A stretch of 64,000 bases of DNA from Candidatus Rokuibacteriota bacterium (GTDB lineage: Bacteria; Methylomirabilota; Methylomirabilia; Rokubacteriales; CSP1-6): NCBI GenBank assembly GCA_016200085.1, contig JACQFL010000050.1:1-64000 (forward strand), read 5' to 3'. A model generated the notes under the pieces. The model was not told the DNA's origin and searched no databases. It saw only the letters and a list, made by a program, of their open reading frames with translations. Made by a program: the position numbers and the translations under genes. This document shows positions 35,958-59,273 of this stretch, piece by piece (the first letter of the stretch is position 1; each line of letters begins with the position of its first letter).

Positions 35958-35964
35958 GGCCCGC

Positions 35965-37779: not shown

Positions 37780-37854
37780 GCCGGGGTAGCTCAGAGGCAG
37801 AGCAACTGATTCGTAATCAGTAGGTCGCGGGTTCGACTCCCGCCCCCGGCTCCA
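37780..37854 (+). tRNA. tRNA-Thr (anticodon CGT)
   Basis: A 75-base cloverleaf with acceptor stem GCCGGGG/CCCCGGC, D arm with AGCTCAGAGGCAGAGC, anticodon stem-loop ACTGATTCGTAATCAGT (anticodon CGT), T arm CGGGTTCGACTCCCG, discriminator T and encoded CCA. It reads ACG. Its 3' 45 bases are duplicated at 55821-55865. Confidence 0.96.
37810..37854 (+). repeat. attL-like direct repeat (3' part of tRNA-Thr)
   Basis: These 45 bases, from the anticodon loop to CCA, are identical to 55821-55865 and in the same orientation. This is the usual footprint of site-specific integration at a tRNA 3' end. Confidence 0.8.
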
Positions 37855-37894
37855 GTTGAATGGCCAACCGGAGCCTGTCAGTAGGAATGAGAGC

Positions 37895-38655
37895 GTGCCG
37901 TGCAAGGCCAGTCAGCGCTGCCGGTGAAAGTCCGGTCCAAGGAAGTGTCGGTACACCTTGGTAGCTACCCGGGAGACGGCGAGGGCGACCGACCCGTCGA
38001 AGCCTCGGGAACAGAGATCCGCCTTGGGCGGGTCAGCGAGCGTACGGGCCGCAACGCGAGTGAAGCCTGAGCAGGCCCCGAAAGGTTGAATGCGAGCGCC
38101 GAGTCTCCTCTCATTGGACGAAGGCCGCCGAGGCGATCGGATCTACCGACGCGGGAAGATCGCTCGGCTCGCCGGGGTAGTGGGCGCAGCACGTACGCAC
38201 GCGGTGACTGGCAACACGGGAGGCCTGTTGCGCGGCCGGGGCGACCCGGCACCGGGTCCCTTCGGGGGATGGGCGCGGCAGGCGCCGGAGGGGCCCAGAG
38301 TACCGCTGAAGCGGGGTAACGCCCGTGGAGGGAAGGGGCCCTGGTTCGGGGCGCGCTCGGCCGAGCCGAGGGGAGGGGGATTGGCGTGAGCCTGGCAACC
38401 CCCGCGAACCTCCGGAGGCTCCAACGGGCGCTGTACGTGACGGCCAAGCGGGATCCAGCGCGGCGGTTCGATGTCCTGTACGACAAGGTGTGGCGTGAAG
38501 ACATCCTCGCCCACGCATTCGCGCTCAGCCGGAAGAACGGGGGCGCGCCGGGCGTGGACGGGGTGACCTTCGCCCAGATCGAGGCGTACGGCGTGGCCCG
38601 CTGGCTGGGCGAGCTGAGGGAGGAGGTTCGAACAGGACGCTACACCCCGCAGCCT
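37895..38655 (+). mobile_element. Truncated group II intron (5' part)
   Basis: The segment has the conserved look of a bacterial group II intron domain I: GGTGAAAGTCCGGTCCAAGG, TTGGTAGCTACCC, CGAAGCCTCGGGAACAGAG, CGCAACGCGAGTGAAGCC and ATTGGACGAAGGCCGCCGAG. It is followed by the first part of a reverse-transcriptase gene. Domains V and VI are not seen; homology ends near 38655, so the intron is 3'-truncated and inactive. The 5' end at about 37895 (GTGCCG) is approximate. Confidence 0.75.
38386..38655 (+). pseudogene. Group II intron reverse transcriptase, N-terminal fragment
   Basis: About 90 residues from a GTG start match the RT0/RT1 region of LtrA-type maturases: RFDVLYDKVWREDILAHAFA, then NGGAPGVDGVTF and TGRYTPQP. 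The expected catalytic segments, including YADD and the maturase domain, are missing; the frame continues to 38871 only as unrelated residues. Confidence 0.8.
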
Positions 38656-38956
38656 GGACGGCGTCGCTGCGTTGTTGAACGGCGGGAAGGCGAGCGGGCG
38701 CCGACCCGCCGGACATCTGCCCGTGCGGGCAGATCACTGCGCCCGATCGCTTCAAGCGCCCCGGCGGGGCTCACCGCGCGGAGAGCCACCGACATGGTGG
38801 CCCTCTGGACGGCGCGTCCGGCGTCCGCTGCCCGGCAGGCGGGGGAAAAGACGGACCGCATCACTCGCTGAAGGCTCTTGCAAACGCGCGGCGAACGCGC
38901 CACCATCCCCCATCGGTGTGAGCGCCGAATGTTGATGGCGCGCGCGAGGGCCCGAC
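38656..38956 (+). other. Junk-like stretch after the truncated intron
   Basis: No gene is recognised. It contains a near-perfect palindrome at 38715-38734 (arms ATCTGCCCG/CGGGCAGAT), related to the one at 43428-43449. Confidence 0.4.
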
Positions 38957-39832
38957 ATGATCAGCGATGCCCAGAGAGACGCCTATCAGCGCGACGGATT
39001 CATCGTCGTTCCCGACCTGCTGGGGCCAGCGCAGCTGGCCAGACTGCGTCGGATCATCGCCGAGCTCGTGGCCGGTGCCGCCGCGGTGGACACCCACACC
39101 GCGGTGTACGACCTCGAGCCCGGGCACACCCGGGCCGAGCCCAAGGTCCGGCGCATCAAGACGCCGCACGAGGTGCACCCCGCGTTCTATGACGTGGTCC
39201 GCAACCCCGACGTGATCGCGGTTCTCACCGCGCTCATCGGGCCCGACCTGCGCCTGCACAGCTCCAAGCTCAACATGAAGTCGGCGAGGTACGGCTCGCC
39301 GGTCGAGTGGCATCAGGACTGGGCGTTCTATCCACACACGAACGACGACATCCTGGCCATCGGCGTGATGCTCGACGACGTGGACCTCGAGAACGGCCCG
39401 CTGCTCGTCACGCCGGGCACGCACAAAGGCCCCGTGTGGAACCATCACGGCGAGGACGGTCGCTTCTGCGGCCTGACCGATCCCGCCGACATCGCGAACG
39501 AGATCGCTAATGCGGTGCCGCTGACCGGCCGCGCCGGCAGCATGTCGTTCCACCACGTGCGCGCGCTGCACGGCTCCGCGCTCAATACGTCGGATCGCAG
39601 CCGCAACCTGCTGCTCTATGGGATCGCCGCGGCGGACGCCTGGCCTCTCCTCGGTGTCCCGGATCTCGACGAGTTCAACAGCCGGATGCTGAGCGGCAAG
39701 CCGAGCGTGGAGCCGCGGCTGGTACCGGTCCCGGTGCGACTGCCCCTGCCTCCGGCCGCGCGGCAGGGATCGATCTACGAGAACCAGGCGGAAGCCAACC
39801 GGTCGTACTTCAAGAAGGCGGTGGTCCGATGA
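38957..39832 (+). CDS. Phytanoyl-CoA dioxygenase (PhyH) family protein
   Basis: A 291-residue Fe(II)/2-oxoglutarate dioxygenase. The iron facial triad is H119-Q-D121 (VEWHQDWAF) and the distal histidine in FHHVRALHGS; a 2-oxoglutarate-binding arginine probably lies in TSDRSRNLL. The first part, MISDAQRDAYQRDGFIVVPD, is typical of the family. The stop overlaps the start of the ABC binding protein, so the hydroxylation substrate may be what the transporter imports. Confidence 0.9.
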   Translation: MISDAQRDAYQRDGFIVVPDLLGPAQLARLRRIIAELVAGAAAVDTHTAVYDLEPGHTRAEPKVRRIKTPHEVHPAFYDVVRNPDVIAVLTALIGPDLRLHSSKLNMKSARYGSPVEWHQDWAFYPHTNDDILAIGVMLDDVDLENGPLLVTPGTHKGPVWNHHGEDGRFCGLTDPADIANEIANAVPLTGRAGSMSFHHVRALHGSALNTSDRSRNLLLYGIAAADAWPLLGVPDLDEFNSRMLSGKPSVEPRLVPVPVRLPLPPAARQGSIYENQAEANRSYFKKAVVR

Positions 39833-41430
39833 CCGAGCAACTGTTCACTCGTCGCGCGTTGCTCGCCGGCCTCGGCGGCGCCGGAGGCCTGGCCCTGTTG
39901 CACTCCCGCACGCCGGCGGCGCTCGGCCAGACGGCGCCGGCCATCAAACGCGGGGGAACCTTCGTCGAGTCCATCAACTGGACGTATCCGACGCTGGATT
40001 CCCATCTCTCGAGCCAGCCGTTCATGGCGGGCTTCGAGGCCATGTACAACACGCTCGTGCGCTTCGAGCTCGCGGATCAGAAGACCGGCGAGCAAAAGGT
40101 GGTCGGCGACCTGGCCGAGTCGTGGGAGCAGCCCGACCCGAAGACCCTGCTCTTCAAGCTGAGACAGGGCGTCGCCTTCCACGACGGCAGCGCCTTCGAC
40201 GCCGAGGTGGCCGCGTGGAACGTATTGCGCGTCCGCGATCACCCGAAATCGCAGTGGAAGACGCAGCTCGGCGTGCTCGAGTCGGCGGAGGCCCTGAACA
40301 AGAGCACCCTGCGCCTGAAGCTCAAGACGCCGAGCCCGGGCTTCCTGCGCAGCCTGGCGTATGCGTCCGGGGCGCGCGTGTACATGCAGTCGAAGGCCGC
40401 CACGGACAAGCTGGGCGAGGATGGTTTCGCCCGGAACCCGGTGGGCACGGGGCCGTTCAGGTACAAGCAGTGGATCACCGACGACCGCGTGATCCTCGAG
40501 CGCAACCCGAACTACTTCGAGACCGGAGCGGATGGCAAGCCGCTGCCGTACCTCGACGGGTTCGTCGGCCGGTTCGTGCCCGACCCCACCGTCGCGCTGG
40601 TGGACATGCGCGCCGGCGCCGTTCACCTGGTCGAGTGGGTGCCCACCAAGGACGTCGCCGCCGTCAAGGCCGATCCCAACCTCGTGCTGTACGAGCTGCC
40701 GTGGGCCGGCCAGAACTACTTCAAGGTCGGCTTCAACGCCAAGGCCGCCCCGTTCAGTGACATGCGGGTTCGCCAGGCCGCCCTGATGGCCATCGATCGG
40801 GCCGGCATGGCCAAGGCCCTCGGTTTCGGGGTCGGCGTTCCCCACTACTATCCGTTCTGGCTGCCGCGCACGCTCGGTTACGACGAGAGCGTCACCAAGA
40901 ACGAGTACAACCCGGCCCGAGTGAAGGAGCTGCTGACGGCGGCGAGGTATCCCAACGGCATCTCGGTCGAGCTGAAGGTGATCAGCCGCGAGCCCGAGAA
41001 CACCATCGGCGAGTTCGCGCAGCAGATGTGGTCGGCCGTGGGCATCAAGACCAAGCTCGTGAGCCTGGAGCGGCTCGCCTGGATCGACGCCGTGCGCGCT
41101 AACAACTTCCAGGCCGCGTTCTGGCGAGGCGTGTTCCAGACGGTGGTCGATCCCGACGTGCTCAAGACGCGGATCAAATGCGGCGCGCCGGCGAACTGGG
41201 CGCAGGTCTGTGATCCCGACATCGACCGGCTCATGGACGAGGGCGGCGCCACCCTAGACACGAGGAAGCGGCACGAGATCTATCGGAACGTGCTGCGACT
41301 CATCCAGGAGCGCGCGTACCTGGGCACAGGGATCGTGATGCCCTTGCTGATGGCCTATCGCAAGGACGTGCAGGGGCTGAAGTTCAACTTCCAGGTGCCG
41401 CACGTGACGACCACGTGGCTCGCGAAGTGA
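39829..41430 (+). CDS. ABC transporter substrate-binding protein (peptide/nickel family 5)
   Basis: A 533-residue SBP_bac_5 lipid-free binding protein. Signal peptide is of Tat type (FTRRALLAGLGGAGGLALL). Core motifs: LAESWEQPDPKTLLFKLRQG, VAFHDGSAFDA, NPVGTGPFRYKQW. Substrates of the family include peptides, nickel and glycosides. It is coupled to the PhyH gene. The two matching permeases lie downstream on the opposite strand; no ATPase is present. Confidence 0.93.
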   Translation: MTEQLFTRRALLAGLGGAGGLALLHSRTPAALGQTAPAIKRGGTFVESINWTYPTLDSHLSSQPFMAGFEAMYNTLVRFELADQKTGEQKVVGDLAESWEQPDPKTLLFKLRQGVAFHDGSAFDAEVAAWNVLRVRDHPKSQWKTQLGVLESAEALNKSTLRLKLKTPSPGFLRSLAYASGARVYMQSKAATDKLGEDGFARNPVGTGPFRYKQWITDDRVILERNPNYFETGADGKPLPYLDGFVGRFVPDPTVALVDMRAGAVHLVEWVPTKDVAAVKADPNLVLYELPWAGQNYFKVGFNAKAAPFSDMRVRQAALMAIDRAGMAKALGFGVGVPHYYPFWLPRTLGYDESVTKNEYNPARVKELLTAARYPNGISVELKVISREPENTIGEFAQQMWSAVGIKTKLVSLERLAWIDAVRANNFQAAFWRGVFQTVVDPDVLKTRIKCGAPANWAQVCDPDIDRLMDEGGATLDTRKRHEIYRNVLRLIQERAYLGTGIVMPLLMAYRKDVQGLKFNFQVPHVTTTWLAK

Positions 41431-41440
41431 TCAGTTGAAG

Positions 41441-41512
41441 CTGGGGGCCCCGACATGGCCCCCAGACCCCTAGCGCTCGGGGCGCCGCGGGGAACCCGTG
41501 GCACCCTTCGAT
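41441..41512 (-). repeat. Dispersed structured repeat, copy D, between convergent genes
   Basis: On the minus strand it reads TCGAAGGGTGCCACGGG, then GCGCCCCGAGCGCTAGGGG, ending in a perfect hairpin CTGGGGGCC/GGCCCCCAG (41441-41449 with 41457-41465). It sits between the convergent binding-protein and permease genes and may act as a terminator for both. Confidence 0.78.
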
Positions 41513-41526
41513 TCTCCGACCGGCTC

Positions 41527-42405
41527 CTAGCTTTCGCCCCGCTGCCAGAGCCGCGGATCGAGGCCGCGCCGGAGGCCGTCGCCCAGGAGGTTGAAGGCCA
41601 GGACGGTCACGAAGATCGCCGCGCCGGGTGCGAACGAGAGCCACGGCGCCTGCTGCATGTACTGGTAGCCCGCCTTGAGCATCGACCCCCAGCTCGACGC
41701 GGGCGGCTCGATGCCCAGACCGAGGAAGCTGAGGGCGGCCTCCACGACGATGGCGGAGGCCACGAGCAGGGACGCCTGCACGACGATGGGCGCGATGACG
41801 TTGGGCCAGACGTGCAGGAGCATGATGCGGCCGGGCGTGGCGCCGAGCGCCCGCGCCGCCGCGACGAAATCGCGCTCGCGGACCGACAGCGTCTGTCCCC
41901 GCACCAGACGCGCGAACACAGGCGTGAACACGATGCCGATGGCGAGCATCGCGTTCGTGAGACCGGGACCGAGGCTGGCCGCGATGGCGAGGGCCAGCAC
42001 GAGCGTGGGAAACGACCACAGCGCGTCGATCAGCAGCATCAACACGTCGTCCAGCCAGCCTCCGTGGTATCCCGCCAGCATTCCCAGGAGCACGCCCGCG
42101 AGCAACGCGAACCCTACCGAGACGACACCGGCCTGCACCGACGTGCGCGTGCCGTAGATGATGCGGCTCAGCACGTCCCGCCCCAGCTGGTCGGTGCCGA
42201 GCAGATGAGCGGGCCGTGGCGCGGCGAGCACTCCGGCGTCTTGCGGCCGGTTCGGATCGTACGGCGCGATCACGTCCGCCCCGAGCGCGACGAGGAGCAC
42301 CACGGCAACGACGACCAGCCCGAAGCCCGCCCCGCGGGTCTCCAGCGCGCGGGCCAGCAGAGCGCCGAGCCAGCGTGACCGCGGAGGGCCGAGCCGTCGG
42401 ACCAC
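41527..42405 (-). CDS. ABC transporter permease, DppC-like
   Basis: A 292-residue inner-membrane permease of the peptide/nickel family. Segments: N-terminal helix (FGLVVVAVVLLVALGADVIA), then APYDPNRPQD and HLLGTDQLGRDVLSRIIYGT, the DppC signature, and the EAA-type loop AARALGATPGRIMLLHVWPN. It follows the DppB-like gene by 13 bp. Confidence 0.93.
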   Translation of the reverse strand: MVRRLGPPRSRWLGALLARALETRGAGFGLVVVAVVLLVALGADVIAPYDPNRPQDAGVLAAPRPAHLLGTDQLGRDVLSRIIYGTRTSVQAGVVSVGFALLAGVLLGMLAGYHGGWLDDVLMLLIDALWSFPTLVLALAIAASLGPGLTNAMLAIGIVFTPVFARLVRGQTLSVRERDFVAAARALGATPGRIMLLHVWPNVIAPIVVQASLLVASAIVVEAALSFLGLGIEPPASSWGSMLKAGYQYMQQAPWLSFAPGAAIFVTVLAFNLLGDGLRRGLDPRLWQRGES

Positions 42406-42418
42406 GATCGTCCTTTCG

Positions 42419-43369
42419 CTACCGGTAGCGGATGCGCGGGTCGAGGAACGCGTAGAGGAGATCGGTCATCAGGTTCGCCAGGACCACCGCGAGCGCGAGG
42501 ATGAGCACCACGCCCTGCAGCATCGGGAAGTCGCGGAAGAAGATCGAATCCGCGGCCAGACGGCCCAGCCCCGGGAGCGCGAAGATCGTCTCCACGACGA
42601 CCGCGCCGCCGAACAATCGCCCGGTTTGCAGGCCGATGACGGTGACCACCGGAATCAGCGCGTTCTTCAGGGCATGGCGCCCGACGACGCGCCCTTCCGC
42701 CAGCCCCTTCGCCCTTGCCACGATGACGTACTCCTGCTGCAGGACCTCGATCAGCGAGGAGCGGAGCTGTCGCATCACCACGGCCGCGAGCGCCATCCCG
42801 AGCGAGAGGGCCGGCAGCAGCATCGACTGGACGCTCGGCCACGAGCCCTGCGCAAACGGCACGTACCCGGAGGGGGGTAGCACCTTGAGCCACACGGAGA
42901 AGACGTAGATGAGCATGATGCCCAGCCAGAAATCCGGGACGGCCACCCCGCTCATCGCCAGGAGCGTGCCCACCTTGTCGGCGATCGAGTTGGGGCGGAC
43001 CGCGGAGAGGATGCCGACCGGCACGGCGATCAGCAGCGCGACCATCATCGCCGTCGCCGTGAGGTGGAGCGTCACCGGAAAGCGGGCCAACAGTCCTTCG
43101 AGCGCCGGCTCGCGCGTGCGGATCGATCGTCCGAGGTCACCGCGGAGCACGCGGCCCAGCCACTTCGCGTATTGCACGGGCACCGGCTGATCGAGACCGA
43201 GCTCCTTCCGCATCGTCTCGTACATCACCTTGTCCCGCATGTTCGCCTCGCCGATGTAGGCGAGCGCGGGATCACCGGGCAAGAGCAGCGCCACCGAGAA
43301 GGTCACGAGTGTGACCAGGAACAGTAGCGGCACCACGTACACGAGCCGGCGCAGGATGTACCCTCTCAC
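42419..43369 (-). CDS. ABC transporter permease, DppB-like
   Basis: A 316-residue permease partner. MRGYILRRLVYVVPLLFLVT at the start and the EAA loop VARAKGLAEGRVVGRHALKN are typical of DppB. With the DppC-like gene it would form the channel for the binding protein at 39829. No ATPase gene lies nearby; ATPases may be supplied elsewhere or lost when the island was rearranged. Confidence 0.93.
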   Translation of the reverse strand: MRGYILRRLVYVVPLLFLVTLVTFSVALLLPGDPALAYIGEANMRDKVMYETMRKELGLDQPVPVQYAKWLGRVLRGDLGRSIRTREPALEGLLARFPVTLHLTATAMMVALLIAVPVGILSAVRPNSIADKVGTLLAMSGVAVPDFWLGIMLIYVFSVWLKVLPPSGYVPFAQGSWPSVQSMLLPALSLGMALAAVVMRQLRSSLIEVLQQEYVIVARAKGLAEGRVVGRHALKNALIPVVTVIGLQTGRLFGGAVVVETIFALPGLGRLAADSIFFRDFPMLQGVVLILALAVVLANLMTDLLYAFLDPRIRYR

Positions 43370-44590
43370 AGGCCGTCCGCCGCTCCTCTACTCCACGGCC
43401 CGCGGTCAATGGCGCGATGGAGATCCAACTCTGCCCGCGCGGGCAGAGTGGCGTGCCGCGCCACTGGTTGCGCCAGCCTTGTCTCTATCCGCCGCGTGGT
43501 GGCCGGCACCGGCGGCAGTTCTTTGTCGGCGATGTCCTCGTCCTCGGTGCGGAGCCCATATCCACTATCTTTCCACTACTCGCCGCGGTTCGGCCGCCTC
43601 GCTACCGTGGTCCACGGCCCGGATCTAGGAGGCGGGCTGGGGACTCGGCGAGCCCGGACGATCCGTTCCACGCACGCTCAGTTACGCGGGGTCGGCGTTT
43701 GGCGGCCGCGCAACGGACTTGATCGTACGCCGCTCCTTTGCCCCGCCCACCCCCGGCGTCGCCACCGTGAGCGGCCTGCTCACGGGCCTTGGTGCCCTGA
43801 TAAGTAGCGTCGGATAGCACTATCTTCGCACTACTGCCCATCTCGAGCACGGGCCACGACCCACATCTACGGACAGGCCGCGCGGCTCGGCGAGCGCTCT
43901 GGGCCAGGGTGCCTGGCGAGGAGTGATCGGAGCCGCGCTGCTCGGCCCTCGGACGTTCAATTCTCCGGCGTGTCTCGAGACTCAGGAGGCGGGGAGCGGC
44001 GGGTGTGCAGCGACGGCGGAAGCGAGGTGATGGTGACCTCTGCTACCACGCGTGCTCGCCCCCGGCTCCATCCGTTTCAAATACTTCCGACTCACCCTCC
44101 GACGACGGACCCGTTTGCCGCGAGATGGGGCTGGCGGGGCGACGGGACGACGATTCGGTGTTGGTGCAGCAGTTCAGGTGGGTAGCGCGCGAGACGGCGC
44201 GGCGCACCGAGAATTGACCTTCATCGCCACGCTTTACGCGGCAACTCGCGGAGGCCACTGCCGGAAGCCGCCGTTCCTCACCGCGTTGTCTTCGAGGCGC
44301 GCGCAGGCGCACGCTCGCTGGGGCCCGCCCGGTATCCGCGACAAGATTGGCGCGGCCATCGATCCGCTCGGCAGCGACGACTACGAGGTCGAGATGGAAG
44401 CGGAGGCCGACGTCGCGCCGTATCGGGGTGGGGGGCGTCCGCGGCTTGACAAAAGTCATGTGAACATGATTACTTCGGCGCGCCGCGGCGTCCTCGGCGC
44501 CAGCGTGCCGGCGCCGCAGTATTCACCACTCCGAACCCACGGAGGGCATGCCTGCCGCCCGGTACCCCAGTGGCACGAATGGAGACGATG
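43370..44590 (+). other. 1.2-kb decayed intergenic stretch
   Basis: No convincing gene on either strand. It contains a perfect 22-bp palindrome at 43428-43449 (arm ACTCTGCCCGC), and two loosely similar segments near 43560 and 43818 (both with CACTATCTT and CACTACT). Base composition is less GC-biased than the flanks. It looks like eroded DNA between two island modules. Confidence 0.5.
43428..43449 (+). repeat. Perfect 22-bp palindrome
   Basis: Arms ACTCTGCCCGC and GCGGGCAGAGT. The inner 18 bases match the palindrome at 38715-38734 except at one central base. Both lie at edges of broken or displaced modules within the tRNA island. Confidence 0.55.
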
Positions 44591-44680
44591 ATGACCGAGG
44601 GCCAGGCCCCCGGGGCAGGGATCCAAGGCCGCGGCCGGGGACACGCTCGGGCCGGGGGACACCGACATGACCGCGATGTC

Positions 44681-44863
44681 TCCGGCTACAAGATTCGCGT
44701 GGTCGATGAGCGCCCGCCCGGCCATCCGCAAGAGAAGTTGCTCACGGAGTTTCGCGAGGCCTGCGCCGAGCGTTTCGGCTGTGAGCCGAATGCCTGCGCG
44801 GCACTCGCATATGACGCCTTCACGGCGCTCGTGAAGGTGCTGCCCACGCTCGTCAGCCGCTGA
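44681..44863 (+). pseudogene. C-terminal fragment of a LivK-type binding protein
   Basis: About 60 residues: LLTEFREACAERFGCEPNA then AALAYDAFTALVKVL. This is the C-terminal pattern of branched-chain amino-acid (type I periplasmic) binding proteins. The rest is missing, and the upstream residues in the frame are low-complexity. The stop overlaps the LLM start at 44863. Confidence 0.45.
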
Positions 44864-45873
44864 TGAAGTTCGGGCTGATCCTGAACACGCAGTTCGTGGC
44901 CGGCGAGGACGCGCGCGTCAAGGTGCGCGACCTCGTCGACCAGGTGCGGGCGGCGCGCGACGCCGGTTTCGACTCCGTGGCGGTCAGCCACCACTATCTC
45001 CTCACGCCGTTCCAGATGGTGCAGCCCCTGCCGCTGCTCGGCCGGCTGGCCGCGGAGGCGGGGGCGATGCGCCTCATCACGAACATCTTCCTGCTCACCA
45101 TTCACACCCCGGCCTACGTGGCGGAGCAGGTCGCCTCGATGGACGTCCTTACCGGGGGCCGCTTCGTGTTCGGCGTGGGACTCGGCTACCGGCCGGAGGA
45201 GTTCGAGGGCATGGGCGTCGAGATGAAGACGCGCGTGTCTCGCTTTCTCGAGATCCTCGCGGTGGCCCGCCGGCTGTGGACGGAGGACGTCGTCACCCAC
45301 ACGGGCCGCCACTTCACCCTCACGAACGCCTCGCTGGCGCTGAAGCCGGTGCAGCGCCCGCATCCGCCGATCTGGATCGCCGCCAGCGGCGACGCCGCCT
45401 TCGATCGGGCCGCGCGCCACGGCGACGCCTGCCTCATCAACCCGCACGCGAGCCTGCCGACCCTGCGGCGGCAGATGGCCATCTACCGCACGGCGCTCGC
45501 CGAGGTCGGGAAGCCGTTCCCCGCCGAGGCGCCGATCTTCAAGGAGTGCTCGGTGGCGCGCACCCGCGAGCAGGCGCGGCGGGACGCCGAGCCGTACCTG
45601 CTGCAGAAGTACAAGGCGTACGCGGACTGGGGGCTCGACAAGCCGATGCCCAAGGGTGAGAGCCTCTCGGTGCCGTACGACGACCTCGTCCGCGACCGCT
45701 TCATCGTCGGCACGCCGGACGAGTGCCGCGCCGAGATCTGCCGCTATCGCGAGCTGCTCGGTGTCAACTACTTCCTTCTCCGCCCGCAGTGGCCGGGCGT
45801 GCCGCAGAAGCGCGTCCTGGAACAGATCGAGCTGATCGGCCAGGCGCTCGTTCCGAGCCTGCGGTCGGCGTGA
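44863..45873 (+). CDS. LLM-class flavin-dependent oxidoreductase
   Basis: A 336-residue luciferase-like monooxygenase. MKFGLILNTQF, DSVAVSHHYLLTPFQ, TGGRFVFGVGLGYRPEEF and RPHPPIWIAASGD are family blocks. It heads the molybdenum hydroxylase cluster and has a broken paralogue at 53875 at the other end. FMN- or F420-dependent oxidation of an organic substrate is likely; the substrate may be shared with the hydroxylases. Confidence 0.92.
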   Translation: MKFGLILNTQFVAGEDARVKVRDLVDQVRAARDAGFDSVAVSHHYLLTPFQMVQPLPLLGRLAAEAGAMRLITNIFLLTIHTPAYVAEQVASMDVLTGGRFVFGVGLGYRPEEFEGMGVEMKTRVSRFLEILAVARRLWTEDVVTHTGRHFTLTNASLALKPVQRPHPPIWIAASGDAAFDRAARHGDACLINPHASLPTLRRQMAIYRTALAEVGKPFPAEAPIFKECSVARTREQARRDAEPYLLQKYKAYADWGLDKPMPKGESLSVPYDDLVRDRFIVGTPDECRAEICRYRELLGVNYFLLRPQWPGVPQKRVLEQIELIGQALVPSLRSA

Positions 45874-46022
45874 AGGTCCGCAAGCGCCCGCCGGCCGCCG
45901 GGCCCGCCGCGAGGCCCGATCCGTCGTGGGACCGCCCGGTCCCGCCGCTCTACTCCCGCGTGTTCCGCACGCTCGAGCGCCCCGGCTGCGGCGAGGCGGT
46001 CCGGGAAGCGGGCCTCGGATGA
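45870..46022 (+). CDS. 50-residue coupled small protein
   Basis: A GTG overlaps the LLM stop, and the TGA overlaps the ATG of the flavin subunit. The product starts VKVRKRPPAAGPAARPDPSW and ends LYSRVFRTLERPGCG plus nine residues. There is no known family. The proline/arginine-rich start and tight coupling on both sides support translation; it may be an accessory subunit or simply a coupling frame. Confidence 0.5.
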   Translation: MKVRKRPPAAGPAARPDPSWDRPVPPLYSRVFRTLERPGCGEAVREAGLG

Positions 46023-46882: not shown

Positions 46883-47370
46883 GCGCGCGAGTGACGGTGG
46901 CGCTGCGAGTCAACGGCCGGGCCTACGAGCGCGTGGTCGAGAGCCGCCGGCTGCTCGTCGACTTCCTGCGCCACGAGCTCCAGCTTCACGGCACCCACGT
47001 CGGCTGCGAACAGGGCGTCTGCGGCGCCTGCACGGTGCTGCTCGACGGCGAGCCGGTGAAGTCGTGCCTCATGCTCGCGCCCCAGGCGCACGGCCACTCG
47101 ATCACGACCGTCGAGGGGCTCGCGGGACGGGGCGAGCTGCACGCCGTGCAGCAGGCGTTCCGCGACGCGCACGCGCTCCAGTGCGGGTACTGCACGCCGG
47201 GCTTTCTGCTGGCCGCCGTCGCGCTGGCCGATCACGGCGTCGCCCTGGAGGGCGCAGCGCTGCGTGAGGAACTGGCCGGCAACCTCTGCCGGTGCACGGG
47301 CTACCAGAACATCGTCGAGGCCATCGAGCGCTACCTGCGCCAGGCCGCCGGCGGACGGCGCGATGGATAA
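46879..47370 (+). CDS. Molybdenum hydroxylase 2Fe-2S subunit (CoxS-like)
   Basis: A 163-residue protein with two [2Fe-2S] clusters. The plant-type ferredoxin cluster is in GCEQGVCGACTVLLDG, and the helical-bundle cluster in QCGYCTPGFLL and NLCRCTGYQNI. It links the molybdenum centre of the large subunit at 47363 to the FAD subunit. It overlaps both neighbours. Confidence 0.96.
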   Translation: MSARVTVALRVNGRAYERVVESRRLLVDFLRHELQLHGTHVGCEQGVCGACTVLLDGEPVKSCLMLAPQAHGHSITTVEGLAGRGELHAVQQAFRDAHALQCGYCTPGFLLAAVALADHGVALEGAALREELAGNLCRCTGYQNIVEAIERYLRQAAGGRRDG

Positions 47371-49708
47371 GCTCCCCTGGCTCGGCGCCAGCGTGAAGCG
47401 GAAGGAGGACGACCGCCTCCTCCGCGGCAGCGGCCGCTTCCTCGACGACGTCGAGGAGACGCTCGCCCTCCACCTGGCCATCGGCCGCTGCCCGTACCCG
47501 CACGCGCGCATCCGGCGCATCGATGCGGCGCGCGCGCTCGAGCTGAGCGGCGTCGAGACCGTGCTCATCGGCGAGCAGGTTGTGGCGCGGACGGAGCCGA
47601 TCACGGTCCTGCGCCCGTTTCCCGGCTCGGCGCCCACCGTCTTCCACGGGATGGCGCACGGCGTCGCGCGCTATGAGGGCGAGCCGGTGGTGGCGGTGGC
47701 GGCCGTCGACCGCTACGTGGCCGAGGACGCGCTCGAGCTGATCGACGTCGACTACGAGCCGCTGCCCCACGTCATCACCGTCGAGGACGCGCTCCGGCCT
47801 GGGGCCCCGCAGCTCCACGCCACCGTGCCGGGAAACGTCGTCGTCGAATCGACCGTGCGCGCGGGCGAGCCGGACAAGCGGCTGGCCGACGCGGCCGTGA
47901 CCGTCGACGGCACCTTCCGCATCAACCGGGTGAGTGGCGCGCCGATCGAGACGCGCGGCGTGATCGCGCGCTGGGCGGAGGACACGAGCACGCTCGAGCT
48001 GTGGGCCTCCACGCAGACGCCGCACCTGCTGCGCGCTCAGCTCGCGCACTGCCTGCGCATGGACGAGACCGACGTGCGCGTGATCGCGCCGGACGTCGGG
48101 GGCGCCTTCGGCCTCAAGATCGGCGTCTACCCGGAGGACATCATCGCCGCCCTGCTCGCCATCGACACGCGGCGCCCGGTGAAGTGGATCGAGGACCGCA
48201 CGGAGTTCTTCCGGGGCGCCGCCCACGCGCGCGAGGCCGTCCACGCGCTGACGATCGGGGCCGACCGCGACGGCGCGCTGCTCGTGCTGCGCGACCGGTA
48301 CCTGATCGACCTCGGCGCCTATCACGGGCCGCTGGGACCGCCGCTGCTGACCAGCATCATGCTCGCCGGGCCCTATCGCCTCCACGACGCCGAGATCCAC
48401 CGCCGCGTCGTGCTCACCAACAAGGTGCCCATGGGGGCCTACCGCGGCTACGGGCAGGCCGAGTCGAACTACGTGCGCGAGGTCCTCGTCGACCGGCTCG
48501 CGCGCCGCCTGGGGCAGGATCCCGCCGACTTCCGGCGCCGCAATCTCTTGCGGCCCGACGAGCTGCCGTTCAAGAACGTCAGCGGCGCGACGTACGACAG
48601 CGGCGACTACGCGCGCGGCCTCGAGCGGGCGCTCTCGCGCGTGGGATACGAGACGTTCCGCACGCGACAGAAGGCGTGGCGGCAGCAGGGGCGCCACGTC
48701 GGCGTCGGCATGTCGTGCTACGTGGAGTTCACCGGCTATCCGTCCTCCGCGTTCCTCGGCCGCACTGGCGCGCGCTTCGGCGCCTACGAGAGCGTGACGC
48801 TGCGCATGGACCGGGCCGGGCGCGCAGCCCTCTCCACCGGCGTCTCGACCTTCGGGCAGGGCACGGAAACGACCTTCGCCCAGATGGCGGCCTCGCTGCT
48901 GGGGCTCGATCCCGTCGACGTCGCGATTCACCGCGGCGACTCGCAGGGCACGCCGTACAGTGTCGGCGGCTTCGCGAGCCGCACGATGATCGCGGGCGCC
49001 GGCGCCATCGAGAAGGCGGCCGGCCAGATCCGGGACAAGATGCTGCGGATCGCGGGCCATATCCTCGACGTCGACCCCGCCGCGCTCGAGGCGACCGCCG
49101 GCATGATCCGCCGCCGCGACGATCCGTCCGTGCAGGTCTCGATCCAGCGGGTGTCGGAGGCCGCCTTCCTGGGCCATCCGCTGCCGCCGGGCGAGGACCC
49201 GGGGCTGGAGGCGACGGCCTACTTCGATCCGCCGTCGTCGGCGTTCGGGTACGGCACGGTGGTCGCGCAGGTCGAGGTCGACGCGCGCAGCGGCGAGTTC
49301 GCGCTGCAGCGCTACATCCTCGTCCACGACTGCGGCACCCAGGTCAACCCGATGATCGTCGAGGGCCAGGTGCAGGGCGCGGTGGCGCAGGGCATCGCGG
49401 CCGCGCTGTTCGAGGAGCTCGTCTACGACCGCGAGACGGGGCAGCTCGTCAACGGGACGATGGTCGACTACTTCATGCCGACGGCGGCGGATCTGCCGGC
49501 CTTCGAGCTGGACCACCTGGAGACGCCCTCGCCGGTGACGCCGTTCGGCATCAAGGGCGTGGGCGAGGGCGGCACGATCGCGGCCGCGGCCGCGATCACG
49601 AACGCCGTCTGCGACGCGCTGGCGCCCTTCGGCGTGGATCTGGACCGGTTGCCCGTCACGGCGGAATCGATCTGGCGCGCGCTCGCCGGCGCGCGCGCGA
49701 AAGGATAG
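47363..49708 (+). CDS. Molybdenum hydroxylase large subunit (xanthine oxidase family), set 1
   Basis: A 781-residue molybdopterin-cytosine-dinucleotide-binding subunit. It starts MDKLPWLGASVKRKEDDRLL; Moco contacts include DVGGAFGLK, GAYRGYGQAE, and the C-terminal catalytic glutamate in GIKGVGEGGTI. The active-site loop reads AYRGYG, not the AYRCSFR of form I CO dehydrogenase, so CO is not the expected substrate; an aromatic or heterocyclic compound or aldehyde is more likely. ATG at 47363 overlaps the 2Fe-2S gene. Confidence 0.93.
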   Translation: MDKLPWLGASVKRKEDDRLLRGSGRFLDDVEETLALHLAIGRCPYPHARIRRIDAARALELSGVETVLIGEQVVARTEPITVLRPFPGSAPTVFHGMAHGVARYEGEPVVAVAAVDRYVAEDALELIDVDYEPLPHVITVEDALRPGAPQLHATVPGNVVVESTVRAGEPDKRLADAAVTVDGTFRINRVSGAPIETRGVIARWAEDTSTLELWASTQTPHLLRAQLAHCLRMDETDVRVIAPDVGGAFGLKIGVYPEDIIAALLAIDTRRPVKWIEDRTEFFRGAAHAREAVHALTIGADRDGALLVLRDRYLIDLGAYHGPLGPPLLTSIMLAGPYRLHDAEIHRRVVLTNKVPMGAYRGYGQAESNYVREVLVDRLARRLGQDPADFRRRNLLRPDELPFKNVSGATYDSGDYARGLERALSRVGYETFRTRQKAWRQQGRHVGVGMSCYVEFTGYPSSAFLGRTGARFGAYESVTLRMDRAGRAALSTGVSTFGQGTETTFAQMAASLLGLDPVDVAIHRGDSQGTPYSVGGFASRTMIAGAGAIEKAAGQIRDKMLRIAGHILDVDPAALEATAGMIRRRDDPSVQVSIQRVSEAAFLGHPLPPGEDPGLEATAYFDPPSSAFGYGTVVAQVEVDARSGEFALQRYILVHDCGTQVNPMIVEGQVQGAVAQGIAAALFEELVYDRETGQLVNGTMVDYFMPTAADLPAFELDHLETPSPVTPFGIKGVGEGGTIAAAAAITNAVCDALAPFGVDLDRLPVTAESIWRALAGARAKG

Positions 49709-49711
49709 CCG

Positions 49712-50176
49712 ATGCAGATCCAGGAGACGTTCACCGTCGACGCGCCTCCGGCGACGGTGTGGAAGTTCTTCGAGGACATCGAACGGGTGGCGCGCTGCGT
49801 CCCCGGCGTGCAGTCGGTCGACGTGCTGGGACCCGACCGCTACAAGGTGCTCGCCGCCCAGAAGGTCGGCTTCATCTCTGCCACCTTCGAGATGGTGACC
49901 CAGATCGAGGGCAGGGATCCGCTCAAGTCGCTGGCGCTCTCGTCCGTCGGCAAGAGCGTGAAGGGCGCGATCGGCAACCTCCGCTCGAAGGAGCGCGTCG
50001 ACTTCGAGGCCACGCCGGAGGGCGGCACGCGCGTGACGCTCACCTCGGAGATGGCCGTCGGCGGGATGCTGGGCGCGCTCGGCCACAAGGCGGTCGCCTC
50101 GAAGTCGAAGGAAATCACCGAGAAGTTCGCCGCGGCGCTGCAGGCGGAGCTCCGGGCGGGAGGGGCGGGACGCTGA
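49712..50176 (+). CDS. CoxG-like SRPBCC protein
   Basis: A 154-residue START/SRPBCC-fold protein of the CO dehydrogenase subunit G family (MQIQETFTVDAPPATVW, ARCVPGVQSVDVLG). CoxG proteins bind membrane lipid or quinone-like ligands and recruit the dehydrogenase to the membrane. Lies three bases after the set 1 large subunit, completing an M-S-L-G order. Confidence 0.9.
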   Translation: MQIQETFTVDAPPATVWKFFEDIERVARCVPGVQSVDVLGPDRYKVLAAQKVGFISATFEMVTQIEGRDPLKSLALSSVGKSVKGAIGNLRSKERVDFEATPEGGTRVTLTSEMAVGGMLGALGHKAVASKSKEITEKFAAALQAELRAGGAGR

Positions 50177-50208
50177 TCCAGGCGCGCCCATCTCTGACAG
50201 GAGACGGC

Positions 50209-52536
50209 ATGGCGGACACGGTGGTCGTCGGCAAGTCGGTGGTGCGAACGGACGCGGCCGCCAAGGTCCGCGGCGGCGCGATGTACGGGGTAGACGTCCG
50301 CTTCGGCGGCATGCTCGTCGGCAAGACGCTCCGCGCCGGCATCCCGCACGCGCGCATCGTGAACCTCGAGACGTCGGCGGCGGCGAAGGTGCCGGGCGTG
50401 CGCGCCATCGTCACCGGGCCGGACTGTTCGCGCCGCCACGGCCTCTTCCAGAAGGACCAGCCGGCGCTCGCCATCGACCGCGTGCGCTACGCGGGCGAGG
50501 TCGTGGCGGCGGTGGCGGCCGAGGACGAGGAGGCCGCGCAGGAGGCGATCGAGCGGATTGCCGTCGACTACGAGGAGCTGCCCGGCGTGTTCGACGTGAT
50601 GGAGGCGGTGGCGCCGGGGGCACCGTTGATCCACCCGGACCAGATGTCGTACGAGCGCGCGCAGGTCACCGGCCTCGTGCTGAACCCCGTGCCCGACAGT
50701 AACATCTCGTACCACTTCAAGCTCCGCCGCGGCGACGTCGAGGCGGCCTGGTCGCAGTGCGACCTCGTGGTCGAGGACACGTTCTCGACGCAGTTCGTCC
50801 AGTACGCGCACCTCGAGCCGCACGTCACCATCGCGCTCTACGACGCGACCGGCGTGCTGACGCTGTGGACCAGCACGATGGGCCCGCACACGGTGCGCGA
50901 CATGCTGGCGGATCTCCTGCAGCTCCCGCAGCAGCGCGTGCGCGTCATCACCAACATGGTCGGCGGCGGCTACGGCTCCAAGATGTACCTGCGAGCCATC
51001 AACCCGGCCGCGGCGCTCCTCGCCATGAAGGTGCCGAACCGCCACGTGCGCATCCTTTTCGACCGCGAGGACGAGTTCCTGAGCTGCGCGGGACGGCTGC
51101 CCACGCGGACCACCATGAAAACCGGCGTCAAGCAGGACGGCACGCTGGTGGCGCGGCAGTCGACGATCTACTGGGAGAAGGGCGCGTACGCCGACATCGG
51201 CGCCGTCATCGTGCGTAACGCGAGCTACTGCTCGCTCGGGCCCTACCGGATCCCCAACGCGCGCATCGACGGCTACCTCGTCTACACCAACCGGCAGCCC
51301 GGCGGCGGCTTCCGTGGCCTCGGCATCCCGCAGGTGTCGTGGGCGGGCGAGCAGCAGATGGACCGCGTGGCGCGCGAGCTCGGGATGAGCCCGCTGGCGC
51401 TCCGGCGCAGGAACATCCTGGGCGAGGACGACGTCAGCGTGACGGGCGAGCGCATGCACCGCGTGGGAGTGGGCGAGTGCCTGGAGCGGGTGGCCGCAGC
51501 CATCGGCTACGAACGACCGCTCGAGCGGACGGCGCCGTCGGGCGCGCGCCGCGGCCGCGGACTCGCCTGCATCCTCAAGTCGACGCTGACGCCGACGGCG
51601 TCGTTCGGTTTCGTCAAGCTCAACAATGATGGGAGCGTCGACGTGATTACCAGCGCCGTCGAGCACGGCCAGGGCGCCCACACCGTGCTGGCGCAGATCG
51701 CGGCCGAGGAGCTGTCGGTGCCGCTCGACAAGGTCCGCTGCGTGATGCCCGACACGAGCGTGACGCCGTTCGACCGGTCGTCGACCTCCAGCCGCACGAC
51801 CTTCCACATGGGGCTCGTGGTGAAGGAGGCCTCCGCCGACGTGCGTCGCCAGCTCCTCGACATGGCCGGCGCCGTCATCGAGGTGCACCCGCGCGACCTC
51901 GAGATCCGCGACGGCGCGGTGGCCGTGCGCGGCGCGCCGGACCGCGCGCTCAGCTACGGGCAGGTCATTGCCAGGTTCTACGGCGGCCCCGGGACCGTGC
52001 TGGGCAAGGGCGTCGTCAACACCAAGCCGCTCTACGACACCATGAACGCCGAGACCGGGCAGTCCAGCCGGCCGTCGATCTTTTGGATGTACGCGGCCAT
52101 CGGCATCGAGGCAGAGGTCGATCCCGACACCGGACAGCTCACCGTCGGGCGGATGGCGTCCGCCGCGGACGCCGGCAAGGCGATCAACCCGCTCGCCTGC
52201 GTGCAGCAGATCGACGGCTCCGCGATCATGGGCCTGGGCATGGCCATGATGGAGGAGGTCGCCTTCGACGGCGGCCGCACGCTGAACCCGACGTTCCTCG
52301 ACTACAAGATCCCGACCACGGTGGACGTGCCCGACACGGACGTGATCATCGTCGAGAGTGGGCACGACGAGGGGCCGTACGGAGCCAAGGGTATCGGCGA
52401 GCCGGCGATCGCACCCGTCCCCGCCGCGTTGGGCAACGCGGTGTACGACGCGGTCGGCGTCCAGGTGAAGGACCTGCCGATTCGCGCCGAGAAGATCTAC
52501 CGCGCGCTGCGGGCGAAGGGTGAGGAGCGCGGATGA
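50209..52536 (+). CDS. Molybdenum hydroxylase large subunit, set 2
   Basis: A 775-residue xanthine dehydrogenase-family subunit. ATG at 50209 follows an ACAGGAGA site. Moco contacts include MVGGGYGSK, GGGFRGLGIPQ and the catalytic glutamate in YGAKGIGEPAI. It is only distantly like set 1 and closer in style to 4-hydroxybenzoyl-CoA reductase or xanthine dehydrogenase alpha subunits. The active-site loop is again not of CO dehydrogenase type. The stop overlaps the second FAD subunit. Confidence 0.93.
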   Translation: MADTVVVGKSVVRTDAAAKVRGGAMYGVDVRFGGMLVGKTLRAGIPHARIVNLETSAAAKVPGVRAIVTGPDCSRRHGLFQKDQPALAIDRVRYAGEVVAAVAAEDEEAAQEAIERIAVDYEELPGVFDVMEAVAPGAPLIHPDQMSYERAQVTGLVLNPVPDSNISYHFKLRRGDVEAAWSQCDLVVEDTFSTQFVQYAHLEPHVTIALYDATGVLTLWTSTMGPHTVRDMLADLLQLPQQRVRVITNMVGGGYGSKMYLRAINPAAALLAMKVPNRHVRILFDREDEFLSCAGRLPTRTTMKTGVKQDGTLVARQSTIYWEKGAYADIGAVIVRNASYCSLGPYRIPNARIDGYLVYTNRQPGGGFRGLGIPQVSWAGEQQMDRVARELGMSPLALRRRNILGEDDVSVTGERMHRVGVGECLERVAAAIGYERPLERTAPSGARRGRGLACILKSTLTPTASFGFVKLNNDGSVDVITSAVEHGQGAHTVLAQIAAEELSVPLDKVRCVMPDTSVTPFDRSSTSSRTTFHMGLVVKEASADVRRQLLDMAGAVIEVHPRDLEIRDGAVAVRGAPDRALSYGQVIARFYGGPGTVLGKGVVNTKPLYDTMNAETGQSSRPSIFWMYAAIGIEAEVDPDTGQLTVGRMASAADAGKAINPLACVQQIDGSAIMGLGMAMMEEVAFDGGRTLNPTFLDYKIPTTVDVPDTDVIIVESGHDEGPYGAKGIGEPAIAPVPAALGNAVYDAVGVQVKDLPIRAEKIYRALRAKGEERG

Positions 52537-53405
52537 TCCTGCGCCCGTTCGAGTACGTCGAAAGCCAGACGGTGGACGATGCCGTCGCAGCGCTCCGGGG
52601 CGGAGGCGATGACGCGCGGGTCATCGCCGGCGGCACGGCGCTGGTGCCGCTCATGAAGCACGCGGTGCTGCGCCCCGCGCGGCTCGTCAGCATCGCGCGG
52701 GTCCCCGGGCTCGCCGACATCGCCCCGGCAACGTCGGGTGGCCTGCGCATCGGCGGCGTCGCCACCCACTGGGCCGTGTCGCACGCGACGCTCGTGCGGG
52801 AGCGCAGCCCGTTGCTGGCCTACGCGTGCGCGCGGGTGGCGAGCCCGACCGTGCGCAGCATGGGGACGCTGGGCGGTAACCTCTGCTACGGCGAGTCGGC
52901 ATCGGACCCGGCGCCGGCGCTCCTCGCCCTTCGCGCCACCGTCCGACTGCACGGCCCCGGCGGCGCGCGCACGGTGCCGATCACCGAGTTCTTCACCGGC
53001 TTCTACGAGACGGCGCTGCAGGAGGCCGAGGTGCTGACCAGCCTCGACGTACCCGCCATGCCCGCCGGCGCGCGCTGGCGGTATCTCAAGTGGACGCCGC
53101 GCGCGCAGGAGGACAAGGCGCTGGTGGGGCTGGCGGCCATGCTCGTGCTGGACGGCCACCGCTGTCGCGTCGCGCGCCTGGCGGTGGGCGGCGTCGGCGC
53201 CTCGCCCGTGGTGCTCGCGCGCGCCGAACAGGCACTGGAGGGCCAGGAGCTCGACGAGGCGACGATCGCGCGGGCGGCGGACGCGGCCGCCGGCGAGGTC
53301 GAGCCGATGGACGACCTGCAGGGCAGTGCCGAGTACCGGCGCGACATGCTGCGCGTCTGGGTGCGGCGCGTCGTGGCCGGCCTGGCGGAAGGGAGAGCGT
53401 CGTAA
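52533..53405 (+). CDS. Molybdenum hydroxylase FAD subunit, set 2
   Basis: A 290-residue CoxM-type flavoprotein. FAD motifs: ARVIAGGTALVPLMKHAVL and RSMGTLGGNLCYGESASDP. C-terminal QGSAEYRRDMLRVWVRRV. It shares its last base with the start of the 2Fe-2S subunit gene, giving an L-M-S order opposite to set 1. Confidence 0.94.
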   Translation: MILRPFEYVESQTVDDAVAALRGGGDDARVIAGGTALVPLMKHAVLRPARLVSIARVPGLADIAPATSGGLRIGGVATHWAVSHATLVRERSPLLAYACARVASPTVRSMGTLGGNLCYGESASDPAPALLALRATVRLHGPGGARTVPITEFFTGFYETALQEAEVLTSLDVPAMPAGARWRYLKWTPRAQEDKALVGLAAMLVLDGHRCRVARLAVGGVGASPVVLARAEQALEGQELDEATIARAADAAAGEVEPMDDLQGSAEYRRDMLRVWVRRVVAGLAEGRAS

Positions 53406-53878
53406 TGCCGGTGGTGGAGCTCACCGTCAACGAGCGTGCGGTGCGCGTGGACGTTCCGGGCCAGTGGACGCTGATCCAGCTGCTCCGCGACGGCCTGGGG
53501 CTACTCGGGACCAAGGAAGGCTGCGGCGAGGGCTCGTGCGGCGCGTGTACGGTGCTGGTCGACGGCCGGCTCACGCGCGCGTGCCTGGCGCTGGCCGTAC
53601 GCGCGGACGGCGCGCGAGTGACGACGATCGAGGGCGTCGGCACCGACGCCGCGCTGCACCCGATCCAGGATGCGTTCGTGCGCCACGGCGCCATCCAGTG
53701 CGGCTTTTGCACGCCGGGTCTCGTCATCACCACCAAGGCCCTGCTCGACGAGCATCCCTGGCCGACCGACCACGACATCCGAGAGTTCCTGAGCGGCAAC
53801 TTCTGCCGCTGCGCCGGCTACAACCTGATCCTCAACGCGGTCCGCGACGCCGCGGGCGTCGTCACGGAGAAGCGATGA
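53405..53878 (+). CDS. Molybdenum hydroxylase 2Fe-2S subunit, set 2
   Basis: A 157-residue CoxS-type protein with both clusters: GCGEGSCGACTVLVDG, then QCGFCTPGLVI and NFCRCAGYNLI. It overlaps its FAD subunit gene by one base and the following broken LLM gene by four. Confidence 0.96.
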   Translation: MPVVELTVNERAVRVDVPGQWTLIQLLRDGLGLLGTKEGCGEGSCGACTVLVDGRLTRACLALAVRADGARVTTIEGVGTDAALHPIQDAFVRHGAIQCGFCTPGLVITTKALLDEHPWPTDHDIREFLSGNFCRCAGYNLILNAVRDAAGVVTEKR

Positions 53879-54972
53879 AGGACATGCGCGTCGCCGCGGC
53901 CCAGAGCGCCATCGACCCGCCCGTAGCCGGCCCACGGCCGCGAGCGGACGCGCCACGTCGAACGGAACGCAAACGGCAGGACGACCGCACGTTGAGATTC
54001 GGACTGCTCCTCAACACGCAATTCCCTCCCGGCGAGAGCGCCAGCAAACGGCTCGAGGGCCTGCTGGACCAGGTGCGCGCCGCGCGCGACAACGGCCTGC
54101 ACTCACTGGGGGTGAGCCAGCACTACCTGGCGACGCCGTTCCAGATGCTGCAGTAGGTGCCCGTGCTCGGCCGGATGGCGGCGGAGGCCGGCTCCATGCA
54201 CATCGGCACCAACATCTTCCTGCTTCCGATCCACAATCCCGTGTACGTGGCCGAGCAGGTGGCGACACTCGACGTCATCTGCGGAGGCCGCTTCATCTTC
54301 GGCTGCGGCCTTGGCTACCGTCCCGAGGAGTTCAACGCCTTTGACGTGGAGATGAAGGTGCGCGTGTCGCGGTTCCTCGAGGTGCTCCAAGTCGCCCAGC
54401 AGCTGTGGACCGAGCCCGAGGTGACTCACGAGGGCCGCCATTTCCGGCTGCACCGCGCGGTGCTGACCCTCAAGCCGGTGCAGCGCCCGCATCCACCGGT
54501 GTGGATCGCGGCCAGCGGTGACCCGGCCGTTGAGCGCGCGGCCAGGCACGGCGACGCCTGGCTCATCAACCCGCACGCAAGTCTGCCGACGCTGGAGCGC
54601 CAGATGGCGCTCTATCGGAGGACGCTTCAGGCTGCGGGACGCCCGTTCCCGAGCGACGCCCCGATCCTCAAGGAGTTCCGCATCGCCGGCACGCGCCGCG
54701 CCGCCCTCGATGAGTCGAAGCCTTATCTCGAGCCGAAATATCGTGCGTATGCGGACTGGGGCCTCGACAAACCAATGCCGAAGGAGGAGAGTCTCTCGGT
54801 GCCGTTCGAGCGTCTGGCTCGCGACCGGTTCATCCTCGGCAATGCGGAAGAATGTCGAACCGACATCGAGCGGCACGTCCGCACCCTCGGAGTGAATCAC
54901 TTCATCTTCCGGGTCCAGTGGCCCGGAGTCCCAAGAGGACGCGCTCGGCCAGATCGCGCAGCTGGGTCGTGA
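53875..54972 (+). pseudogene. LLM-class oxidoreductase with amber stop and C-terminal frameshift
   Basis: A paralogue of the gene at 44863. Homology runs from LRFGLLLNTQF to FQMLQ, meets TAG at 54154-54156, and resumes in the same frame with VPVLGRMAAEAGSMHIG. The intact paralogue reads FQMVQPLPLLGR here. Near VQWPGVP the frame breaks; the expected end (EDALGQIAQLG) appears in another frame to about 55016. Two lesions point to a pseudogene or two sequence errors. The N-terminal 40 residues before homology are atypical. Confidence 0.8.
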
Positions 54973-55155
54973 GGTAGTTCAGAGGACACGGGGTGGGGAT
55001 CGATGACATCGACCGCGTTCGCCACGAGGAGAAAGACGCTCCGCCGGAGTCTGATGCTGGTCCAAACGGCAGAGGCGTTCAATTGCGCCATCGCCCGGGC
55101 GTGTGCGGCAGGGCAGGTGGACGGCTCATCGCGGCGGCGACGTGAGGCAGCAACG

Positions 55156-55389
55156 TCAGGCGAAGACGGTCGGCGCCTCCACGGGCGTCTGGAGGGCCTC
55201 GAGCGCCTTCATGACGGGCCGCTTGCGGAACCGCCGCCCGTCGTCGCGGCTCAGCGCCGGATCGCCGCCGACGCTCGTGATCGCCTTGCCGCGGACGATC
55301 CGATTCGAGCCGATCGACTTCGCCAGGGCGTCGAGCGCGCTCAACTGCGCGACCGGAGTGCCGTGCGCCTCGATCTCCTTCGCTGCCGC
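55156..55389 (-). pseudogene. C-terminal fragment resembling a GrdB-family selenoprotein B reductase
   Basis: About 78 residues on the minus strand: KEIEAHGTPVAQLSALDAL, KSIGSNRIVRGKAITS, GGDPALSRDDG and MKALEALQTPVE. This matches my memory of the C-terminus of the glycine/sarcosine/betaine/D-proline reductase selenoprotein B family (GSNRIV near a proline-rich loop, then KALEALxT). The upstream part is missing, so it is a remnant. The family call needs a search. Confidence 0.4.
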
Positions 55390-55820
55390 GGCGCCGCCGA
55401 CTCTGAGTTCCCACCGATTAGATGACTCACGTGCCGGACGAAGCCATCCGAGGATTCAGCCGAGGCGAAACCGGAGCGTTTTCGGACTGCGGAGGCGCTC
55501 CGCCGATCGGGTACCAACGGAGCCGAAGGAGGCCACGCCGAGCCGCACTTGCCAGGGGTCACTTACTCCGGTTCTCGCGGACTTGGAGCTTCCCCGTCCT
55601 CCTCGGTGGGCTGCTCGTCTTTAATCGGCGGGTCGTCGAGAGATGGTGCCGGGTGTGCAGCAGCTATCGCCGGCTCCAACGCCCTATGAGTGATGGTGCC
55701 AACGTGGTGCCAAAGGTAGACAGGTGATCGCGCCCCCACCGAACGTGTCGTCAGGTGGAAGCGTTGTCGGATTGCTCGCCTGGGCGCTCTTGGTCCTTCT
55801 GCGTCGGTTCCTGGTCGGGC
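55390..55820 (+). other. Island right end, no gene recognised
   Basis: The short open frames on both strands show no family features. An integrase would be expected here, but none is visible. The same applies to 54973-55155. Confidence 0.5.
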
Positions 55821-55865
55821 TTCGTAATCAGTAGGTCGCGGGTTCGACTCCCGCCCCCGGCTCCA
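55821..55865 (+). repeat. attR-like direct repeat (3' part of tRNA-Thr)
   Basis: An exact 45-base copy of 37810-37854, from the anticodon loop to CCA. The 5' half of a tRNA is absent, so this is not a gene. It marks the right end of the presumed island. Confidence 0.85.
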
Positions 55866-59248: not shown

Positions 59249-59273
59249 GCGTCACGGTGAGAGGAGAGGCGGC

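Follow-up and report, generated by a model that had tools for sequence, protein, structure and literature searches.

Tycheposon-like tRNA elements encode their own tyrosine recombinase at the tRNA end. The tDNA islands catalogued by Islander (Hudson, Lau and Williams, PMC4383910) include a class 'A', 3' fragment type, in which foreign DNA lies between an intact tRNA gene and a displaced fragment in the same orientation, with crossover in the anticodon loop and an integrase within the interval. Islander also describes tandem arrays, in which successive elements occupy one tDNA and each has its own fragment and integrase. Table 1 of that work lists 125 arrays of at least two members and four of at least three (PMC4383910). 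Tyrosine recombinases that use such sites take the anticodon loop of about 7 bp as their overlap region and the stem as the dyad (PMC8371274), and integration sites centred on the anticodon were likewise described by Islander (PMC4383910). Archaeal integrated elements without an integrase have been explained by loss of the gene after integration (PMC8371274). We found nothing specific in the literature on genomic islands of Rokubacteria.

We analysed a window that comprises positions 1-64000 of a contig 190,725 bases long, in an assembly of 57 contigs (3.57 Mb). The features of its tRNA-Thr(CGT) locus are collected in Table 1; elsewhere in the window, Rfam detected a TPP riboswitch (RF00059, 55.6 bits) at 3945-4055 on the minus strand. 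The preliminary description had reported that the tRNA 3' end, 37810-37854, recurs in the same orientation at 55821-55865, and this repeat is exact (45 of 45 bases, plus strand, E 4.5e-17, which excludes chance). It is the sole partial copy of tRNA-Thr at 100% identity in the 3.57-Mb assembly; the next-best matches reached at most 79% over most of the gene or covered 28 bp. An exact-match genome scan found identical 45-base copies in three family-level relatives (G011, G026 and G018). With an intact tDNA, a displaced fragment in the same orientation and flanks that are joined in some relatives (G032, G022 and nearly G004), the locus belongs to the wider class of tDNA islands. Its interval contains no integrase, and the strict, putatively active class of Islander does not apply. 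Also unlike the islands of that catalogue (PMC4383910), the locus holds stacked relics and not one clean pair. We consider it likely that this tDNA island of a known kind is better seen as a stack of three or more elements, now decayed, in a phage attachment site. Both the tDNA island and the tandem array are known; the host lineage is new.

Table 1. Features of the tRNA-Thr(CGT) locus, with positions in the window
Feature	Position	Strand	Basis
Conserved left core genes	29159-36270		Precede tRNA in relatives
DAO-family FAD oxidoreductase, located between tRNA and left core	36362-37471	-	Pfam, comparison of relatives
Intact tRNA-Thr(CGT), attB	37780-37854	+	ARAGORN, Rfam
Anticodon loop TTCGTAA (tRNA nt 31-37), putative 7-bp crossover region	37810-37816	+	Fragment limits across genomes
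Putative element A1, 6.2 kb	37855-44070	+	Matrix, composition, Rfam, Pfam
3'-truncated group II intron: D1-D4 part 37918-38059, RT/maturase start from 38386	37918-38659	+	
PhyH-family dioxygenase	38957-39832	+	PF05721, E 6e-33
Family-5 solute-binding protein	39829-41430	+	PF00496, E 5e-72
Two peptide-type ABC permeases: OppC-like 41527-42405, OppB-like 42419-43369	41527-43369	-	Pfam
Relic att (tRNA nt 62-75, ACTTCC at +12), putative A1/A2 junction	44057-44070	+	Matrix, 27.1 bits (controls about 8)
Putative element A2, 11.8 kb, ending in the 45-bp repeat	44071-55865	+	Matrix, Pfam
LLM-class oxidoreductase	44863-45873	+	Pfam
Two CO-dehydrogenase/xanthine-dehydrogenase-like gene sets and a CoxG-like gene	46019-53878	+	Pfam
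LLM pseudogene, stop at 54154-54156	53875-54972	+	
45-bp repeat (tRNA nt 31-75), displaced 3' half, putative A2/B junction	55821-55865	+	Sequence match
Putative element B, window part; runs to contig 69125, 13.3 kb in total	55866-64000	+	Relics, Pfam, relatives

Comparison with relatives, none of them from the same genus, established that DNA has entered this site. The left core lies ahead of the same tRNA in at least 15 relatives. In two of them (G032 and G022), the site is empty: the tRNA is followed within 34-68 bp by a conserved short gene, which we take to be RidA-like, and a TPR gene. The site of G004 is nearly empty, with the right core within 531 bp of the tRNA. In ten genomes, including the source genome, the right core begins about 5-32 kb from the tRNA, among them about 5 kb in G033, 5.7-6.6 kb in G028, G031 and G003, 8.5-9 kb in G011 and G005, 12 kb in G018 and 19 kb in G016. 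A displaced 3' fragment in G025 lies 84 bp ahead of the right-core gene, where the tRNA stands in empty genomes. None of the tRNA-Thr sites searched in relatives carried the window's cargo at high identity. Because empty sites exist in G032 and G022, the DNA behind tRNA-Thr(CGT) is inserted, and the site is an integration hotspot filled differently from genome to genome. The preliminary description had proposed acquired DNA in the tRNA gene with an att-like boundary and had called for an empty site with joined flanks; these relatives supply it. In G031, contigs C37 and C239 respectively end in and start with the tRNA plus upstream bases, or the reverse, and look as if the assembly had hit a repeated or variable junction.

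The right repeat, which had been taken as the end of the insertion, is not its end. Both core flanks of the source genome lie on one contig in the order found in relatives, with the TPR gene 32 kb from the tRNA at about contig position 70.3 kb. Since the hotspot's right core is this far away, the inserted DNA extends beyond the 18 kb between the repeats and continues to contig position 69125, where chromosome follows. DNA has been added on the 5' side of the tRNA as well. In none of the other genomes compared does the DAO gene adjoin the tRNA, and its relatives in G019, G002 and G007 (75-84%) sit at tRNA-free places, which suggests that it is probably a separate insertion. A search for a 5' tRNA fragment that would account for the extra DAO gene found none.

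We searched for further traces of integration with a matrix of tRNA 3' ends plus 20 downstream bases, built from 13 sites of other genomes with the source genome excluded. Over 74 kb of the source contig, the matrix gave peaks at 55866 (34.3 bits), 44071 (27.1), 37855 (22.9) and 69124 (12.4), all on the tRNA strand. The next match scored 10.0 bits, and background reached at most 6.5 bits in reversed sequence and 8.1 in shuffles. Fragments in the same orientation thus follow one another serially, as in tandem arrays, at 44057-44070, at 55821-55865 and, more weakly, at contig positions 69106-69125. This outer relic lies beyond the window and matches the tRNA over 19 of 20 bp, and the conserved core restarts there. 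A downstream motif, ACTTCC at about +12, occurred at 11 of 33 other sites, where shuffles would give 0.7; it was missing from the nearly or fully empty G004, G022 and G032 and from some occupied sites. The motif appears to be element-derived, and it is perhaps an integrase arm site or an integrase 3' end, the latter because the stop codon of the G015 and G029 integrases falls there. The motif beside the 44057-44070 relic points to a junction of two elements. The outer relic lacks it, as expected of chromosomal DNA. Composition also shifts at about 44 kb, coinciding with the 44057 relic: GC and 4-mer distance are about 0.685 and 0.22-0.26 in A1 and 0.70-0.74 and 0.18-0.20 in most of A2.

These results make it probable that at least three elements of 6.2, 11.8 and 13.3 kb, about 31 kb together, integrated successively at one attB. 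Several observations count against this model: the 44057 relic retains just 14 tRNA bases, the outer relic scores little above the next-best match (12.4 against 10.0 bits), and the intact tRNA of the window has no downstream motif. In 4-mer composition, the 18 kb as a whole departs weakly from the core (p 0.017), and B does not depart from it. The preliminary description had read the locus as one 18-kb island. Its 18 kb are indeed inserted and bounded by repeats, but a single element spanning 37855-55865, acquired in one integration with the 44057 relic as a chance match or internal cargo sequence, is unlikely. In favour of that reading, no fragment on the contig other than the 45-bp repeat is well preserved; against it stand the strength of the 44057 relic (27.1 bits, controls about 8, with a matrix from other genomes), its correct strand and motif spacing, the composition shift at the relic, and the extension of the insertion beyond the repeat to the outer relic. 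One outcome that the preliminary description had named as refuting, a right repeat left by another event, is half borne out, in that the repeat would belong to a different insertion from the DNA adjoining the tRNA.

The cargo of the proposed elements is mainly catabolic and transport genes. The preliminary description had noted an intron fragment and catabolic genes, and profile searches bear out both. A1 begins with the intron fragment (Rfam RF02003 at 37918-38059, 99.8 bits), whose truncated group II RT ORF matches only positions 2-66 of the 353 in TIGR04416 (E 1.8e-8); a search for further copies of this intron found none. The dioxygenase and transport genes follow, and the end of A1 is decayed. 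In A2, LLM genes flank both CO-dehydrogenase-like gene sets, whose genes start at 46019 (M), 46879 (S), 47363 (L), 49712 (CoxG-like), 50209 (L), 52533 (M) and 53405 (S). A pattern search of the CoxL-like proteins for the form I CO dehydrogenase signature AYxCSFR gave no match, and we therefore call the proteins CO-dehydrogenase-like only. Part of the A2 set occurs in G032 at 70-78% protein identity, rearranged and in a tRNA-free place, and the tRNA-Thr site of that genome is empty. A tRNA-Arg predicted at 48501-48591 falls within a CoxL-like gene, has no Rfam match and looks spurious. Within the window, B contains an HTH gene, a 523-aa protein (56260-57831, no Pfam match), ORFs of 318 and 308 aa, a CoxL-like gene and gene pieces; past the window, it encodes an Oxidored_FMN protein and two amidohydrolases. 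Related copies of the 523-aa protein occur in the genome, one of them on the source contig (179355-180611, 57%), and the last 100 residues of the protein correspond to repeated modules in long ORFs of G003.

Integrases adjoin this tRNA in relatives. Tyrosine integrase genes lie next to tRNA-Thr in G015, G019, G029 and G018. Those of G015 and G029 are just downstream and convergent, at about 13 bp, and that of G019 is in the same place and broken. G018 (C49; tRNA at L040 3547-3618) has the mirror-image arrangement: its integrase, 57% identical to that of G015, lies upstream of the tRNA, the last 13 or so codons coincide with tRNA nt 1-40, and 5' tRNA fragments are found 13-15 kb upstream. Pieces of this integrase-into-tRNA arrangement are kept in G033, G028 and G002. 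The large terminase subunit encoded by the G018 element and the head maturation protease encoded by that of G029 identify both as phages or phage-derived. They share with the source locus the same attB and the same crossover loop, whereas the window's elements have no recognised phage structural gene or integrase. Searches for free phages returned little: in IMG/VR, one contig with this att site had tRNA-Thr intact and gave no convincing match to an integrase, the G029 integrase retrieved a single relative at 28%, and nearly all relatives in GenBank phages were below 60% identity, the best-covering at about 30%.

Fragments also accumulate serially elsewhere. One G016 contig (C135; L036, L122) carries four tRNA 3' fragments 0.5-2.9 kb apart and no integrase, and a G021 contig (C51; L115) has two more 3' fragments about 1.7 and 3.7 kb past the tRNA, seen by matrix scan only. 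The G016 fragments are directly preceded by a GC-rich hairpin-like sequence of the GCGGGCCGG..CCGGCCCGC type.

The source locus itself has no apparent means of mobility. As the preliminary description had observed, an integrase is absent: no PF00589 protein, and no tyrosine recombinase of the kind that marks tycheposon-like elements, occurs on the contig, and we looked for integrase remnants in the 31 kb and found none. Phage structural or packaging genes were absent from Pfam scans of called genes and PHROGs scans of the unassigned ORFs tested; these scans returned only a generic HTH protein and the intron RT, which does not place the locus among prophages. Pfam scans of called genes also detected no relaxase, type IV secretion or conjugation gene. 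Lacking any recognised gene of these kinds, the stack is probably decayed and immobile. In Islander's arrays (PMC4383910), every member is required to have an integrase; none is present here, and two of the three fragments are degraded. Archaeal elements without an integrase (PMC8371274) are similar in this respect and differ in host, which is bacterial here, and in cargo, which is mainly catabolic here.

The preliminary description had raised mobilisation in trans, and integrase-free islands could still be moving by means of the integrases of phages that share the att site. Phage-type integrases do occupy the same tRNA in other genomes, and no PF00589 protein is encoded on the contigs of G000, G007, G016, G025 and G027 that retain 3' fragments; decay would give the same pattern, however, useless phage genes being lost. 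The source assembly encodes no close relative of the tRNA-Thr integrases (its three PF00589 proteins are only 26-34% identical to them, over parts, and were rejected as a resident trans-acting source), the 31 kb contains pseudogenes and truncated genes, and no near-identical island turned up in another genome. Current mobility in trans is improbable. It is equally doubtful that catabolic cargo travels integrase-free through phage integrases at tRNA-Thr(CGT) and stacks metabolic genes in this way, as the G016 fragments might be taken to illustrate.

We located the crossover by aligning fragments to the intact tRNA of their own genome, or, for G025, to a relative's tRNA. Displaced 3' fragments are exact from nt 31 in G000, in G007, in three of four cases in G016 and in one of the two cases in G025; the second G025 fragment and the fragment of G027 start at nt 29-30. 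Displaced 5' fragments are exact up to nt 37 in G018 and G015, and a second G018 copy stops at nt 34, through one mismatch. The segment common to both sides, nt 31-37 (TTCGTAA), is likely the crossover region, and these limits agree with the anticodon-loop class of tyrosine-integrase sites. The 45-bp repeat begins exactly at the same loop edge as these independent fragments and both core flanks stand on one contig in the relatives' order, so that an assembly artefact, or copying of a tRNA fragment by some process other than site-specific integration, is very improbable, even in a draft multi-contig genome without the integrase and from a lineage known from metagenomes.

The reading we favour, successive integration, would run as follows. 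tRNA-Thr(CGT) would be an attachment site used repeatedly in this lineage by phage-type tyrosine integrases. An incoming element would bring a copy of the tRNA 3' half and recombine within the 7-bp anticodon loop, restoring the tRNA and displacing the old 3' half outward. B would have integrated first, then A2, then A1, the newest, which would have supplied the restored 3' half. This yields the layout tRNA, A1, the 44057-44070 relic, A2, the 45-bp attR at 55821-55865, B, the 69106-69125 relic and core. Each element would once have had an integrase, and integrases and any transfer genes would have been lost later by decay while catabolic and transport cargo was retained. Since the 31 kb holds neither an integrase nor a remnant of one, we infer from the relatives that a kin of their phage-type integrases may have performed the recombination in the source genome.

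The locus offers a comparative view of how metabolic genes are gained in a lineage of soil and groundwater that is known almost exclusively through metagenomes. The capture of one tRNA from both sides by related integrases provides a natural measure of the crossover region, which is the anticodon loop. Phages would dock at this tRNA gene, and the site would fill, decay and fill again.
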